DNA from: a virus
DNA length: 43,016 bases
Reading direction: 5' to 3' (one strand)
IMG/VR virus record: IMGVR_UViG_3300046642_000839
Location: 1-43,016 of that record
Under the pieces are notes generated by a model. The model was not told where the DNA came from and did not search any database. It was given only the letters and a program-made list of their open reading frames with translations. A program made the position numbers and the translations under genes. Of this stretch, positions 16,610 through 28,829 are shown one piece after another; positions within the stretch are counted from its first letter, which is position 1, and every line of letters begins with the position of its first letter.

Positions 16610-19240
16610 TCAGGCTGCCCTCCAGTGCTGCTCTGATGACTCCTGCGCGGCCTCGATGACCGTGCGCTCGACGAGGTAGAACCAGACCTTGGAGTGCTCG
16701 TCCTTCCGCGCCCGCAGCACGTACTCGCCGAAGAAGCGGTCGCGCCGGCTGGCGAGCATCATGCCGAGCCCCTTCGCGGTCGGAAGCCGCCCGTCGGATC
16801 GCGTGATGAACGTCCCGGCCCACGGGTCGGGCAGGTCGAACCCGGGCATCGTCTGCGCGGTGCCAAGCAGGTCCGACGCGGTCATCGCCGTTGTCGGGTA
16901 CCGCTGCTGCCAGGCCGCAAGGAATCCCGCCCACTGGCTGGCCTCGTCGTCCTGGTTCTCCAGCTCGGAGGTGTTGGTCAGGAACCCGTCGACCTCGTGG
17001 AAGGCGAGGAATCCGCCCATCGCTCTCGCCCACCTGCGGAAGGACCGCATCGCGTGGTCTGCCTTCGGGGCGCCGGCCACGATCCAGGCCCGTGCGAGGA
17101 CCAGGAGCGCGCGCAGCAGTGCGGCCCGGTTGTCTTCCGACTCCAGCCACTCGTCGAGGTCGGGGATACGGAATCCGGTGCGGAGATCGGGGCGCGGGCA
17201 GTTCGGGTTCAGGTGGACCAGCGCGGTGCGCTGTGCGATGTCCCCGCCGAAGCGGATGTTGTTCCCGGTGACCAGCCACAGCCGGTCGTTGACGAGGCGG
17301 GCTTCCTCGCTGCGTCCTAGCAGCCGGTCATCCCATGCGGGGCTGGTGAGGAGTTTCGCCAGCGACGGCGCGTCTACGGACTCGTACTCGCTGACGTTGT
17401 CGAAGACGATGACGGCGCTGGAGTTCATGAGCGTCGCGGTGATTGCCTTGCGGAGCTCGTCGTCGTCGCCGACCCACGGCCGGACGGTCGCCCCGTACAG
17501 CGTGCCGATGATGTCTGCGAGGAGAGTCTTTCCGGATCCGCGGTCGGCTGCGCTGATCGCCCCGAGGGGGATGAGCCCTCCGATGTAGGGGCGCAGGATC
17601 GGGGAGAGCAGGAGTGCGATGAAGTTCGCCCGGTCCCCGGGGGTGGCCCAGGGGAAGTCGCCGAGGACGTAGTCGAAGACGAACTCGCGTGCGTGCTGCA
17701 CGTCGATGATGTCCGGGACGTTCGGGATCTGCGGAACGTTGATCTGCGGCGCATAGAACAGCCCGGTGCCCAGGTCGTATCCGGGCTCCTGGAGCACGGT
17801 TCCGTCCGGGCGGAGCACCGGTGCCGCGATGAGGTTGACGAGCACGGGCAGTCCGGGCCAGCTCGTCGCGGAGAGCACTGCCTTGCACACTGCGATCGCG
17901 GGGCTGCTCGGGATGACGACGGAGCCGCCGGCCTTGGTGGTCCGCGTCTTGTACACCTCGACGTGCTCGGCGAGCAGTCGGCGCATGCTGTCCGGGGTGA
18001 TCGGGTGGACTTCCTTGTCCGCGGCCAGGGGTTGTGTGGCGAGCGTGCTGCCGCTGACGTCGGCGACCTGGACGAGCTGGCCGCCGCGGACGTACGTCTC
18101 GGGGAGGTGTCCGTCGCGGACGGTCTGGGTGAGGGAGAGGATGGCCGCGGGCTCGTGGTCGATGCAGATGCTGGGCTGCTCAAGGCTGGTCGGCGCCGCG
18201 GTGCCCGCGGGGGTGGTGGCTTCTTCCTCCTGCGGCGCCGGGTCAGGGTCCGCGATGAGCGCCTCGTAGCTCTCGCGGGAGTGGTCTTCGCGGGGCAGCC
18301 GCACTTCCAGGCTCTGCCGCGTCGCTTCGATATCGGCGGGCTGCAACTGGCCGATGGACCAGGCGAGTACGCCCATGAACTCGGAGCGTGCGCTCTGCGG
18401 GCTGCGGGTCCGCTCGACTCCGTCGCGGCTGGCGGACATCACCTCGGTGAACGCGGTGAGCATCCGCCGGGCCATGTCCGCGGCCGGGTACATGCCGGCC
18501 GCAGTCTCGCGGACCGCGCCCGCGAGGCTGAGGACGAGGGCTTCGTGCCGGGAGGTTCCGGTGGCTACGGCGTCGGCGAACTGGGTGAGGATCCCAGAGA
18601 GCAGCGCCGGACGGGCGGACGCGGTGTGCGCGGCGAGGAAGGTGCGGACCTCGTTGTCGGTGGCCGCGTCGGAGCTGTCCCCGGTGTCACGGAGCAGCCC
18701 GGCGACCGCATCGGGGAGGATGGGGACGGGACCGCTGGTTTCCCACAGGTAGCGGGCGCCCTGGTCTTCTTTCTCGTGGACGCTGGGGGCGACGATGATG
18801 ATTCCGTTGAGGCCGCGGACGTCGCCCCAGCCTTTGCCGAGTCCTCCGGTTCCGTTGCCGAGCCGGCGTCCCTCGGGCACGGTGAATACGTAGTGGCCGC
18901 GTCCGGGGATGTTCGCCCGGGTGGATTGGTACGGGGGCTGGGCCTGGATGATCGCGGTGGAGAGCACCTCGGGCGTGTGCTCCGGGTGGTCGATGTCGAA
19001 GGCGATTGCGCCGGACCGGCCGACGTGCAGGGCGAGGCTGTCGTTCGATCCGGCGAACCAGGACACGATGTCCTCGGCGTCGCGGCTCGACTTCGCCGGC
19101 CAGCCCTTCCCGAGGACGGACCCCGCGTGCTTGGTGGCCCTGTCCACGGGGAGGACGTACCAGCCCGCGGCAGCGTACTTGAGGCCGGCGGCGAGGTTGT
19201 CGTCTTCCTCGGTGATCTGAGGAATGCGCAGCTCGGTCAC
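16610..19240 (-). CDS. Primase-polymerase / ATPase replication protein
   Basis: 876 residues. The N-terminal part reads as an archaeo-eukaryotic prim-pol domain: GWYVLPV (26-32), WPAKSS, the metal-binding FDID (81-84) and GRGHYVF (113-119). The C-terminal half is an AAA-type ATPase with Walker A AADRGSGKT (about 564-572) and Walker B AVIVFDN (about 609). Together they would prime and unwind phage DNA, probably at the adjacent repeat array. GTG 19240 overlaps the preceding stop by four bases; an earlier ATG would add Arg/Pro-rich shadow sequence. Confidence 0.88.
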   Translation of the reverse strand: MTELRIPQITEEDDNLAAGLKYAAAGWYVLPVDRATKHAGSVLGKGWPAKSSRDAEDIVSWFAGSNDSLALHVGRSGAIAFDIDHPEHTPEVLSTAIIQAQPPYQSTRANIPGRGHYVFTVPEGRRLGNGTGGLGKGWGDVRGLNGIIIVAPSVHEKEDQGARYLWETSGPVPILPDAVAGLLRDTGDSSDAATDNEVRTFLAAHTASARPALLSGILTQFADAVATGTSRHEALVLSLAGAVRETAAGMYPAADMARRMLTAFTEVMSASRDGVERTRSPQSARSEFMGVLAWSIGQLQPADIEATRQSLEVRLPREDHSRESYEALIADPDPAPQEEEATTPAGTAAPTSLEQPSICIDHEPAAILSLTQTVRDGHLPETYVRGGQLVQVADVSGSTLATQPLAADKEVHPITPDSMRRLLAEHVEVYKTRTTKAGGSVVIPSSPAIAVCKAVLSATSWPGLPVLVNLIAAPVLRPDGTVLQEPGYDLGTGLFYAPQINVPQIPNVPDIIDVQHAREFVFDYVLGDFPWATPGDRANFIALLLSPILRPYIGGLIPLGAISAADRGSGKTLLADIIGTLYGATVRPWVGDDDELRKAITATLMNSSAVIVFDNVSEYESVDAPSLAKLLTSPAWDDRLLGRSEEARLVNDRLWLVTGNNIRFGGDIAQRTALVHLNPNCPRPDLRTGFRIPDLDEWLESEDNRAALLRALLVLARAWIVAGAPKADHAMRSFRRWARAMGGFLAFHEVDGFLTNTSELENQDDEASQWAGFLAAWQQRYPTTAMTASDLLGTAQTMPGFDLPDPWAGTFITRSDGRLPTAKGLGMMLASRRDRFFGEYVLRARKDEHSKVWFYLVERTVIEAAQESSEQHWRAA

Positions 19241-25242: not shown

Positions 25243-25427
25243 CTTGCTCACGAGGGAGACTCTGTCATGAAACACCCTCCCTCGCAAGGGAGAGTTCTGT
25301 CTGTAAGGTATGAATTTTTGCTAGAACGCGCATTCGAATACGGGTGTGAGCTGTGTTAATGCAGGTCAATGACTTGATCGCGACTCTTGCGCGGGAGGGA
25401 ATTTCTGGCTACTCCCTAACTAGGGAG
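25243..25427. promoter_or_regulatory. Lysogeny switch: CTCCCT-N4-AGGGAG operators
   Basis: Two perfect dyads, 25277-25292 (centre CGCA) and 25412-25427 (centre TAAC... read as AACT within a perfect TA-extended arm), plus a diverged copy at 25243-25258, lie between two divergent HTH genes. The interval is noticeably richer in A+T (25305-25345). I cannot assign -10/-35 elements with confidence. Confidence 0.72.
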
Positions 25428-25442
25428 GTAAAGTTCCGGGAC

Positions 25443-25889
25443 ATGACCGATGCGACCCCCACGCGCGCACAACGATTCGCTGCCATCGTCGTGCCAGCCG
25501 CCGAACACGCCGGCTACACCGGCCACGGCGCCAAAGCGCGCTTCGCGCGGGACACCGGCATGACCGACAGCAGCGTCACCCGCCTGTGGCAAGGAACCGC
25601 CCTTCCCGAGGCGCGGTTCTACGAAGCCATCGCCACCGCAACAGGCATCGACCTCAGAACTCTCCTCGTGGAAGGTGGCGTTCTGTCACCTGAATCTCTT
25701 CAGTCACTGTCCGAAACGGATCGATCGCAGGTAGGCTCTGGCCTCACGCCGGAGGAAGCGGCTGATCGGCTAGGGATCCGGGACGAAGTGGGGCGCCAGC
25801 TTTTCTACGCAACCATCGAGCGTCTTAAGCGTTTGCAAGACGACCCCGCCGATCACGCTGAGCCCGGAGGGAAAGCGGCACAGATGTGA
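25443..25889 (+). CDS. HTH protein, candidate immunity repressor
   Basis: 148 residues. The N-terminal domain has GHGAKARFARDTGMTDSSVT, then RLWQGTALPEARFYEAIATA and GIDLRTLL, closely parallel to the Cro-like protein at 24961. The C-terminal half (LTPEEAADRLGIRDEVGRQL) is helical and may allow dimerisation. ATG 25443 is preferred because the operator at 25412-25427 would otherwise lie inside the gene. It probably maintains lysogeny; this is inference from arrangement. Confidence 0.75.
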   Translation: MTDATPTRAQRFAAIVVPAAEHAGYTGHGAKARFARDTGMTDSSVTRLWQGTALPEARFYEAIATATGIDLRTLLVEGGVLSPESLQSLSETDRSQVGSGLTPEEAADRLGIRDEVGRQLFYATIERLKRLQDDPADHAEPGGKAAQM

Positions 25890-25902
25890 GGCGAGGGTGC
25901 GT

Positions 25903-26451
25903 ATGAATCTCACTGGCGGCAGACAGGCCACAGGAACAGCAGCACTGGCGGCCGTCGGGGGACTTGCACTCACCGTCCACGGACTCACGGGCGATCGGCC
26001 ACTGTGCTCTTTCAGCGGAGTCACCCTCGTCATGGTCGCGTTGACCGCCATCATCTTGATCGTGATCCGAAAATGGGTCACCGATACCAGTGATGAACGG
26101 CGTCTCCTCGCCGCATCCCAGCGTGAAGCCCAGGCTGAACGGGGCCGCTACCTCGCCGCGAAGGCGGCCCTCGTCAACGAACAAGCGCGCATGAGCAAGG
26201 ACATAGCCGCTGAACGCGCGGCACTCACCGCCCGGCTCAAGAGCGAACGTGAAGCGATGCAAGCCGAGTTCGATGCGGCCCTTGGTGAAGCTTCGGCCGA
26301 TGCGATGAACATCGCGATGTCCTGGGTTCATGGTGGAAAGTTCGCCCCGCCGCAGCCCCAGCAGGGCAACCTCATCCAGTTCCCTCACCAGCAGCCGCAA
26401 GGCCAGCCGCAGCGTGAGCGGTCGCTGGAGCACGGAGTCGTCCGGCCCTGA
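25903..26451 (+). CDS. Membrane-anchored coiled-coil protein
   Basis: 182 residues with two hydrophobic spans (about 10-27 and 38-57), then a long charged helix (SDERRLLAASQREAQAERGR onward) likely to form a coiled coil, and a Gln/Pro-rich tail. ATG 25903 has GAGGG five bases upstream, better than the GTG at 25897. Its 3' end overlaps the integrase 3' end by 80 bases, tail to tail. It may be expressed in the lysogen with the repressor. Confidence 0.72.
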   Translation: MNLTGGRQATGTAALAAVGGLALTVHGLTGDRPLCSFSGVTLVMVALTAIILIVIRKWVTDTSDERRLLAASQREAQAERGRYLAAKAALVNEQARMSKDIAAERAALTARLKSEREAMQAEFDAALGEASADAMNIAMSWVHGGKFAPPQPQQGNLIQFPHQQPQGQPQRERSLEHGVVRP

Positions 26452-28018
26452 ACCCCGGCTCCCCCAAGAACGCCAGCCGGATCCGCCCATCGTCCAACGC
26501 GCGCCGGCCGGAAGCCTGCGCCTTGTACAGCCGCACCGTCACGATCGTCTTGATGACCTCGCGCCTCTGGTCCAGCGTGAGCGCCCGCACCGCTGGCTGA
26601 CCCTCGGCCTCAGGGCGCCCGTTCCACACCACGTCAGGGTCGTCAGCCTCCAACAAGCGGAGCACCAGCGGCGAAACCCCCGTGAAGCTCCGCAACTTCG
26701 CCCGCGCGGCCTCCAGTTTCGGCTCCAGCTCCGACTCCATCGACGCAAGCGAGACGGCCGACAGCTTGAAGCGCCCCGCCTCCGCGTCGAACTCCCGCGA
26801 CATGCGGCGTGCTTCGGAGAGCTGTTCCTCGTACGCGTTGATCAGCTTCTGTGCCGAGGCGGCCATCTCCTTCACCTTGTCGTCCGCCGGGATCAGCGCG
26901 GACCGGGACTTGGCCTTGTCGCTGAACCAGTCGATGATCGCCTCTTCGACGTAGGCGTCGAGGCGGGCCTCCACGATGGAGGTGTCGTTCTTCTCGTCGC
27001 AGCACAGCCCGGGCTTCCGCTTCGCGTTCGGGGCGAGGTAGCGGAGGACCGCGTGGTCGCCGCACTCTCCACACAGGGCGAGGTACGACAGGAGGTGCGC
27101 CACTTCCGATCCGCGCTGCATCAACCGCGACGGGCTGGTGAGCATGGCAGTCACCCGGTTGAACATGGCCCGGCCTGCCGGGGTCTCCAACCCCTTGATC
27201 GGAGCCCACACGGCCTTGACGTAGGCACCCTTGTGGATCCGCTCCCCGAGGTACGCCCGGTTCAGAAGCATCGACCGGGCGAATGCGTCCGTCCACGGTT
27301 TGCCGTCGGGCCGCGCCGCGTCCGGCTCGGAGTTGAGCCAGCGCGTGAGCGCCCTCAGGGACTGCCCCATGTCGATGCGCTGCAACGCCTCGAACACGAA
27401 CGGCCCGCGGACGGGATCCTCGTCCTGCCCGGTGCAGCGCCGGCGCCCGGAAACGGTCTGATACGTGCGCACGTACCCGTACAGCAGCTTCCCGTGCGGG
27501 AGCCCGGCCTGCGCCTGCGAGCTGGCCGCGCGGAGGTTGCCATCCCGGATGCCCTCGGCTTCATCCTCGGCGTCGACGGCGTGCATGGCCGTGGCCTTGA
27601 GGTCGTCCCGGCGGGAGAGGTCGTAGACCTGCCCGTTGTAGCAGAGCAGGGTGTTCGTGTCGCGGAGCACCTTGCGGAGACGGACGTACGCTTCGAGGTC
27701 GCGGTAGTAGCGGCTGGCCTGGAAGGCGACGACGATCCGGCGCGTGCCCGACGGCACGGGTTCCGTGGCGATAGTGTCGATCAGCGCTTCGAAGTCATCG
27801 CGGACCTTGCGTCCGTGCCTGCTTGCGGAGATGTCGGTGTCGCTGAACTCGCGTGTCACGTGCCATTTGTGGCTGTCGCACAGCCTGCGGCCGGTTGCGA
27901 GTTGGTCGATGACGGAGCTGCCCTCGCCGATGGCGTCGTCGGAGTTGCGGCCGTAGAGCATGGCTTCGAACTGGACGCCGGGGATGACCAGGTGCAGGTA
28001 TTCGGGCGCGTAGGGCAT
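26372..28018 (-). CDS. int: Large serine recombinase (phage integrase)
   Basis: 548 residues. The catalytic domain has MLYGRNSDD (nucleophile Ser about 26), the DQ of SVIDQLATGRRLC, DISASRHGRKVRDDF and the SRYYRD arginine motif (about 105-110). The recombinase domain follows. A zinc ribbon (LCGECGDHAVLRYLAPNAKR through LCCDEKND, about 320-350) and a coiled coil (AQKLINAYEEQLSEARRMSR) follow. It would join attP to a host attB without supercoiling, and would need a directionality factor for excision. A -10 element seven bases before ATG 28018 suggests a leaderless message. Confidence 0.92.
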   Translation of the reverse strand: MPYAPEYLHLVIPGVQFEAMLYGRNSDDAIGEGSSVIDQLATGRRLCDSHKWHVTREFSDTDISASRHGRKVRDDFEALIDTIATEPVPSGTRRIVVAFQASRYYRDLEAYVRLRKVLRDTNTLLCYNGQVYDLSRRDDLKATAMHAVDAEDEAEGIRDGNLRAASSQAQAGLPHGKLLYGYVRTYQTVSGRRRCTGQDEDPVRGPFVFEALQRIDMGQSLRALTRWLNSEPDAARPDGKPWTDAFARSMLLNRAYLGERIHKGAYVKAVWAPIKGLETPAGRAMFNRVTAMLTSPSRLMQRGSEVAHLLSYLALCGECGDHAVLRYLAPNAKRKPGLCCDEKNDTSIVEARLDAYVEEAIIDWFSDKAKSRSALIPADDKVKEMAASAQKLINAYEEQLSEARRMSREFDAEAGRFKLSAVSLASMESELEPKLEAARAKLRSFTGVSPLVLRLLEADDPDVVWNGRPEAEGQPAVRALTLDQRREVIKTIVTVRLYKAQASGRRALDDGRIRLAFLGEPGFRAGRLRAPATAHAAAGLAAAGEGTG

Positions 28019-28024
28019 GCGCCG

Positions 28025-28030
28025 ATGCTA
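28025..28030 (-). promoter_or_regulatory. Likely -10 of the integrase promoter
   Basis: TAGCAT (28030-28025 on the minus strand) is placed so that transcription would start at the A of ATG 28018; there is no Shine-Dalgarno sequence. The -35 position falls inside the left arm of attP, so integrase bound to attP could shut its own promoter. Confidence 0.5.
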
Positions 28031-28040
28031 GCGAACTACT

Positions 28041-28088
28041 GCCATCCCTAAACAGACTTGTGGGTCCACAAAGTGGTTTAGGGGTGGC
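28041..28088. other. attP: Candidate attP with central GT
   Basis: An imperfect 48-bp dyad: left arm 28041-28063 and right arm 28066-28088 around GT (28064-28065). The inner blocks CTTGTGG / CCACAAAG and the outer blocks CCCTAAAC / GTTTAGGG match, and GCCA / TGGC extends them. Size, dyad symmetry, a two-base core and position 23 bases upstream of the integrase start are all typical of serine-integrase attP sites. Confidence 0.8.
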
Positions 28089-28321
28089 TATTGGTTTGGG
28101 TCCGGCTGGCCAAGAGGAGGGGCGTCGCAGACCTCGTCGACGAGCTCCAGCATCTCGTAGAGGCGGATGCGTAGCTGTTCGACGATCAGGATCAGGGACG
28201 CTGGATCCAGCTGTGCAAGGTCCTCGGCCCGGAAGGTTTCCAGGTCGCGACGTGCGTAGTCGATCTGGGCCTTCTGGATGTCGGTCAGGCGCGCTGGTGG
28301 GCGTGGGGGGTCTTCGTGCAT
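28088..28321 (-). CDS. Small helical protein beside attP
   Basis: 77 residues (MHEDPPRPPARLTDIQKAQI...) with two helices (YARRDLETFRAEDLAQLD and LILIVEQLRIRLYEMLELVD). ATG 28321 has AGGTG nine bases upstream; GTG 28333 is an alternative. Its stop codon is the last bases of the attP right arm. Directionality factors of serine integrases are small and diverse, and this is a possible candidate, but nothing in the sequence proves it. Confidence 0.65.
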   Translation of the reverse strand: MHEDPPRPPARLTDIQKAQIDYARRDLETFRAEDLAQLDPASLILIVEQLRIRLYEMLELVDEVCDAPPLGQPDPNQ

Positions 28322-28388
28322 GGGGGCTTTCACCTGATGCTGGGCGCGGGAGGGTGGGGCGCGCCAGGGTGGGCGGCCTACGCATGGG

Positions 28389-28524
28389 TGGTACAGGTAA
28401 TTGTGCGTTCAATATTTGCACACGCGCAATGACAGTTAACTCACATCACTCGAACGAGTGTTTTATTCGAAGTTGGTTGCGTTCTGGCCGGAACGCGATC
28501 TCGCAAATGTACCAACGATGGTAC
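28389..28524. promoter_or_regulatory. Intergenic control region with TGGTAC operators
   Basis: This A+T-richer interval separates the gene at 28321 from the Xre gene at 28559. It has a perfect dyad GTACCA-ACGA-TGGTAC (28509-28524, T/A extended on both sides), a half site TGGTAC (28389-28394), and a second dyad CACTCG-AA-CGAGTG (28447-28460). It probably binds the small Xre protein and controls both directions. Confidence 0.65.
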
Positions 28525-28558
28525 AGACAATGATCACGCCCGCCACCAGCGTGTATGC

Positions 28559-28792
28559 GTGCCCACCGATCCCCTGCCCGCCCGGGTACTCGCCCGCCGA
28601 CAGGCCATCGGAGACCACATCCGCGCCGCCCGGACTGAGCGGAAGCTCACACAGGAAAAGCTCGGCGAGGCGACGGGCCTGGACCGCAAGACAATCAACC
28701 GGATCGAGAACGGCGCGTACGCGACGAGCATCGACCACCTGCTCCTCATCGCCGACGCCCTCGACATCCCGCTCGCCGACCTCGTGAGGTGA
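28559..28792 (+). CDS. Small Xre-family repressor
   Basis: 77 residues with a complete five-helix Xre domain: GDHIRAARTERKLTQEKLGE, ATGLDRKTINRIENGAYATS, IDHLLLIADALDIPLADLVR. GTG 28559 has no strong Shine-Dalgarno. The palindromic operator 35 bases upstream suggests autoregulation. It could be a second immunity gene or control the neighbouring zinc-ribbon operon. Confidence 0.82.
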   Translation: MPTDPLPARVLARRQAIGDHIRAARTERKLTQEKLGEATGLDRKTINRIENGAYATSIDHLLLIADALDIPLADLVR

Positions 28793-28829
28793 CCCGCCGC
28801 AGCCCCAGAAGAACAACTGCGACGGGTCA
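28790..28829 (+). terminator. Hairpin that includes the Xre stop codon
   Basis: TGACCCGCCGCAG (28790-28802) pairs with CTGCGACGGGTCA (28817-28829) with one mismatch. The stem begins with the stop codon of the Xre gene. The region 28830-28933 beyond holds no gene I can support. Confidence 0.65.

Follow-up and report, generated by a model that had tools for sequence, protein, structure and literature searches.

The window (the whole stretch of DNA that was analysed, 43,016 nucleotides) is a linear record with no end repeats, and the site of interest lies directly upstream of a serine integrase gene. To the left of the site is a DNA polymerase/primase, and to the right are gene X, a small HTH regulator, a larger HTH protein, tail genes and a tape measure. 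The features in the immediate vicinity are the following.

26372 to 28018, minus strand: P0001, a large serine integrase of 548 aa (Pfam, PHROG_95 and fold matches; YGRxS motif)
26460 to 28065, minus strand: core-P'-integrase cassette, about 75% identical in DNA to the viral contig L043, with an AC versus a CT core; the rest is very similar
28025 to 28030, minus strand: TAGCAT, a hexamer resembling a -10 box, 6 nt upstream of the integrase start codon, present as TAGCAT or TAACAT in 10 of 10 aligned free relatives
28041 to 28088, minus strand: predicted attP, a 48-bp imperfect dyad (18/23 pairs) with arms kept upstream of related integrases and split at the centre in prophages
28041 to 28063, minus strand: P' arm, integrase-proximal, which stays in attL of prophages
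28064 to 28065, plus strand: predicted crossover dinucleotide GT, read as AC on the integrase strand and placed by the attL/attR alignment limits of the LUP30 prophage, with AC in both
28066 to 28088, minus strand: P arm, integrase-distal, which stays in attR of prophages
28088 to 28333, minus strand: gene X, small and conserved (81 aa), terminating at the outer edge of attP; in prophages it lies at the attR end

P0001 has the layout of a large serine recombinase, with an N-terminal catalytic domain, a Recombinase domain and a long C-terminal region. It has Pfam matches to Resolvase (4e-8) and Recombinase (9e-5), is assigned to the PHROG_95 integrase family, and its predicted fold matches the Bxb1, LI/A118 and phiC31 integrases. 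The catalytic Y-x-R-x-S motif (Y22, R24 and S26) is invariant across 12 aligned sequences, and long helices predicted at residues 380-408 and 421-446 correspond to a coiled-coil insertion (model pLDDT 77, pTM 0.39). At the zinc-ribbon positions C316, C319 and C340 are present, with C319 replaced by His in two distant relatives. Residue 345, at the position of the fourth zinc-ribbon ligand, is Asp or His clade-wide and Cys in none. The top isolate-phage integrase among the matches listed is 31.5% identical to P0001; closer integrases are carried by metagenomic viral contigs (97%, 83%, 77%, 74% and lower), and Streptomyces genomes carry integrases that are 77%, 63%, 61% and lower identical. In an evenly drawn set of Streptomyces genomes, a relative of the integrase (E <= 1e-80) is found in 11 of 393.

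Adjoining this gene, positions 28041-28088 read GCCATCCCTAAACAGACTTGTGG-GT-CCACAAAGTGGTTTAGGGGTGGC, in which 18 of 23 pairs are complementary around the GT at 28064-28065. The first-pass annotation had described such a 48-bp imperfect dyad around GT upstream of the integrase, and this is indeed what lies there; only the gap has to be corrected: the integrase starts with an ATG at 28018 on the minus strand, and the dyad edge is 22 bases from it, not 23. When 43-kb sequences were simulated 100 times with a first-order Markov model that keeps the dinucleotide statistics of the window, 18/23 was reached by 0.06 sites per simulated window, or about 1e-4 per 100 positions beside the integrase. It is worth noting that an equal 18/23 dyad is present in the window at about position 634, and because of this, symmetry by itself is not decisive for attP. 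More weight is carried by conservation at a fixed place in relatives and by splitting at the core in prophages. The inverted repeat around 634 lies within 600-670 and has CTACGCGTAG in each arm.

The region upstream of the integrase was aligned between the window and nine other free relatives. In these ten sequences the TAA and TGTGG columns of the outer arm and the ACAA of the inner arm are invariant. The arms and their distance to the integrase are constant and the dyad centre is variable. A CTAGCAT-like box before the integrase ATG is also conserved in all ten, and the TAGCAT hexamer is probably a leaderless integrase promoter that overlaps the P' side. Gene X, which sits between the regulator gene and attP, gave no match among phage isolates and is a candidate regulator or directionality factor. 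The regulator gene (28559-28793, plus strand) is divergent from gene X and the integrase, and its product, a 77-aa Cro/CI-type HTH protein, is a likely lysogeny regulator.

Integrated relatives keep only the integrase-proximal arm beside the integrase, and host DNA starts at the core. The nearest of them is in Streptomyces sp. LUP30 (contig NZ_MJAJ01000017.1, 143,793 bp), where the integrase is 77% identical; no integrated phage with an integrase more than 77% identical to P0001 was found. On the attL side of LUP30 the left flank of the window and the P' arm align up to window position 28068, and on the attR side, at the other end of that contig, the right flank aligns from 28064. The two alignments overlap on the window only in the core plus its immediate neighbours. 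The cores are found at contig positions 18492 and 91547, 73,055 bp apart, with AC at each: attL reads ..CCGGCGATCTGG-AC-TCTCAAACCTGTTTAGGG and attR reads ..GGTAAACAACTTTGTGG-AC-GCGACCGGCCG. The window shares the AC core, and its arms are near-identical to those of LUP30. A prophage had been expected from the first-pass annotation to split the site into attL and attR with host DNA beside them, and the Streptomyces relatives are split in this way, at the exact core; LUP30 crosses over within 28064-28068 and not at another sequence.

The gene interrupted in LUP30 encodes a secreted chitinase with carbohydrate-binding and fn3 domains, and its catalytic part matches an exochitinase in the PDB. In 19 other Streptomyces this gene is intact and reads ..ATCTGG-AC.. 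through the junction (the empty site, without phage); the site is widespread in the genus. To our knowledge, chitinase is not among the known targets of Streptomyces serine integrases. The LUP30 prophage itself is damaged, with 34 integrase residues missing in frame (L015 10001-11530); at attR the chitinase gene lacks about 62 bp to the right of the core (L083, about 1048). Because of these two losses it is probably stranded, and because of the damage its attB was deduced from attL together with the empty-site genomes.

The comparison of attL and attR, which had been proposed as a way to deduce attB, was also run on other relatives and gave two clean attB sites. In L017 the target is a GH43-like gene with a GG core, and once its flanks are joined they can be aligned across the junction to 13 other Streptomyces. 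In L016 the core is CC (integrase strand) and the joined flanks align with 16 other Streptomyces, so crossover at these two sites loses no bases. The L016 target gene is unclassified; it had been considered as a GH5 enzyme, but there is no credible Pfam or PDB match (the telomerase matches were taken as chance), and from an FDPYNEP-like motif alone it is possibly a glycoside hydrolase. In two further relatives attR is readable, and the targets are a small membrane protein (L018) and an MFS transporter with a GC core (L019). The contigs L018, L019 and L051, two of them from named Streptomyces genomes, begin within one base of the attP core, a pattern compatible with integrated and excised forms side by side in the cultures that were sequenced. 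No matching P arm was found at the opposite end of the L051 contig (56 kb).

In all five types of target with a TGG-core sequence, TGG is read in frame as Trp, and the codon that follows (Thr, Gly, Gly, Gly and Ala) takes its first two bases from the core. Of the TGG triplets in long ORFs of the fetched loci, 19% are in frame; the pattern was noticed post hoc, in five cases. It falls short of the whole family because L020 (58%) and L022 (53%), both with solvable junctions, do not have a TGG core. The literature searched held nothing relevant on attB sites in chitinase genes or on a rule involving Trp codons.

The chitinase site is probably the target of the window integrase as well, a prediction based on a single relative, LUP30, whose core is the same and whose arms are nearly identical. 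The target is not transferable with certainty, as related integrases with other cores use other genes. Relatives at 58-64% integrase identity have other cores and go into the GH43-like gene, the possible glycoside hydrolase, the MFS transporter and the small membrane protein, and the core and integrase move as a cassette. That the site is attP but that the window phage uses a gene other than the chitinase is a less likely alternative, given the AC core and arms shared with LUP30 and the many Streptomyces that offer the chitinase site.

The cassette is best seen against the viral contig L043. Between this contig and the window, DNA identity is mostly 90-100% at about 28,080-28,800 and about 25,350-26,460, and the two have the same outer P arm. 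In the stretch that runs from the core into the integrase gene and covers most of it, identity drops to about 75%, and neither core base is shared. L002 shows the opposite pattern: its integrase is about 95% identical and its P side about 80%. These patterns together mean that core and integrase travel together, either by homologous recombination or by site-specific exchange at attP. A tentative and rather doubtful extension of this is that the clade switches its integration address by exchanging a cassette that starts at the core, in which core, P' and integrase are replaced and the outer arm is kept, and that it may favour in-frame Trp TGG sites where the core supplies the opening two bases of a four-fold codon. 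If true, conservation of the protein at such sites would hold the attB DNA constant.

Both flanks of the site had been called phage-like, and gene content and relatives bear this out. The larger HTH gene on the right has 80% DNA identity to one of the Streptomyces phage OnionKnight, which has a tyrosine integrase near the corresponding place. The window is also similar to other Streptomyces phages and encodes a tape measure and collagen-like tail proteins. No host DNA is seen on either side of the site. L002, L003 and L043 are contiguous across it, which rules out a split or hybrid contig, and with an OnionKnight-like right flank the two sides do not come from different replicons. Since both flanks are phage and contiguous in relatives, the junction was not integrated, and was neither attL nor attR when sequenced. 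The record being linear and incomplete, the claim of a non-integrated phage genome holds for the molecule read at the junction. Neither a terminase nor a capsid gene could be recognised in the 30 ORFs tested, as is expected of such a fragment. An excised circle, virion DNA, a phage-plasmid and a tandem prophage look alike at this point. In Streptomyces sp. NBC_01177 an integrase 41% identical to P0001 is found in the same layout with an intact 16/23 dyad on a 51.7-kb circular plasmid, and this, together with the linear fragment and the absence of terminase and capsid among the ORFs tested, would allow the intact attP to come from tandem-integrated or plasmid-like copies instead of a virion or excised circle. 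Such an origin is nevertheless improbable given the tape measure and other tail genes, the likeness to the tailed phage OnionKnight and the lack of host DNA on either side. The part of the plasmid record with the integrase and attP-like dyad is NZ_CP108596.1 20352-24824 (L137), and the record is possibly an excised phage or a phage-plasmid.

A hairpin serving as operator or terminator in the gap from gene X to the integrase, with no attachment role, could be suspected from a palindrome in an intergenic gap, the conserved -10-like element next to it and the equally good dyad at 634, but this reading is rejected as highly improbable because prophages cut the sequence at its exact centre and join it to host genes, and because the arms are kept while the centre changes between relatives. 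A double role for the dyad, as attP and as operator or promoter, is possible.

The site has the properties of an attP: a pseudo-palindrome of about 50 bp with a central dinucleotide and an adjacent integrase, and a core that is split in relatives and shared with the host site. We take 28041-28088 to be, almost certainly, the attP for the adjacent serine integrase, in a temperate soil phage whose host is very probably Streptomyces. The dyad and the integrase, the conservation, the precise splitting in relatives and the sites without phage are all read from sequence. The chemistry is that known for the family, where dimers bound to attP and attB come together in a synapse and make their cuts at the 2-bp core before the halves rotate and are joined again (PMC3783163). 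In this case an integrase dimer would bind the two inverted arms of attP and synapse with a second dimer on a chromosomal attB with the same central dinucleotide, most likely ATC-TGG-AC|N in the secreted chitinase gene as in the closest integrated relative. After cleavage of all four strands at the 2-bp core, rotation and religation of the halves would leave attL (B-AC-P') next to the integrase, with attR (P-AC-B') at the opposite end.

Several known systems are close enough to be compared. Bxb1 attP is a pseudo-palindrome of roughly 48 bp with a GT core and an adjacent integrase, and the site described here is alike in size, symmetry, core and position. The Bxb1 integrase (Mycobacterium phage, PDB 9iu2) is also the best PDB match to P0001, both by sequence profile (1e-13) and by fold. 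However, identity in the structural alignment is 18%, the arms, host and target are all different, and the window clade carries Asp or His, not Cys, where the fourth zinc ligand would be. The LI/A118 integrase is another fold match, with a pseudo-palindromic attP and a central dinucleotide as in the window and with different arms. The paper on its structure with an attP half-site (PDB 4kis; PMC3783163) describes a zinc-domain motif that is shifted 5 bp between attP and attB; such a shift is not evident by eye at the window site. Host genus and chemistry are shared with the serine integrases of Streptomyces, which include phiC31, phiBT1, TG1, R4, SV1, phiJoe, phiOZJ, phiWTR and Samy (PMC12924846). 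The Samy attP is, like that of the window, intergenic and upstream of its own integrase, and its target is a protein-coding gene (PMC12924846).

It is plausible that the integrase and attP form a pair new in specificity. The window supplies an integrase that is far in sequence from those of current Streptomyces vectors, together with its attP and a deduced attB. As an element it is of an ordinary kind, and the clade is useful for studying how an integration address changes: it has conserved arms, natural cores AC, CT, GG, CC and GC and several solved targets. Because attP and attB need to have matching cores, this amounts to a natural experiment on target-site change by serine integrases. The prophage integrases of LUP30, L016 and L017 share with the window their clade, attP architecture and crossover point, whereas core dinucleotides and target genes differ in most members. 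More unusual are a central dinucleotide that differs between phages near-identical outside an integrase cassette of about 75% identity, and the in-frame Trp codon found at TGG in the five TGG-core target types.
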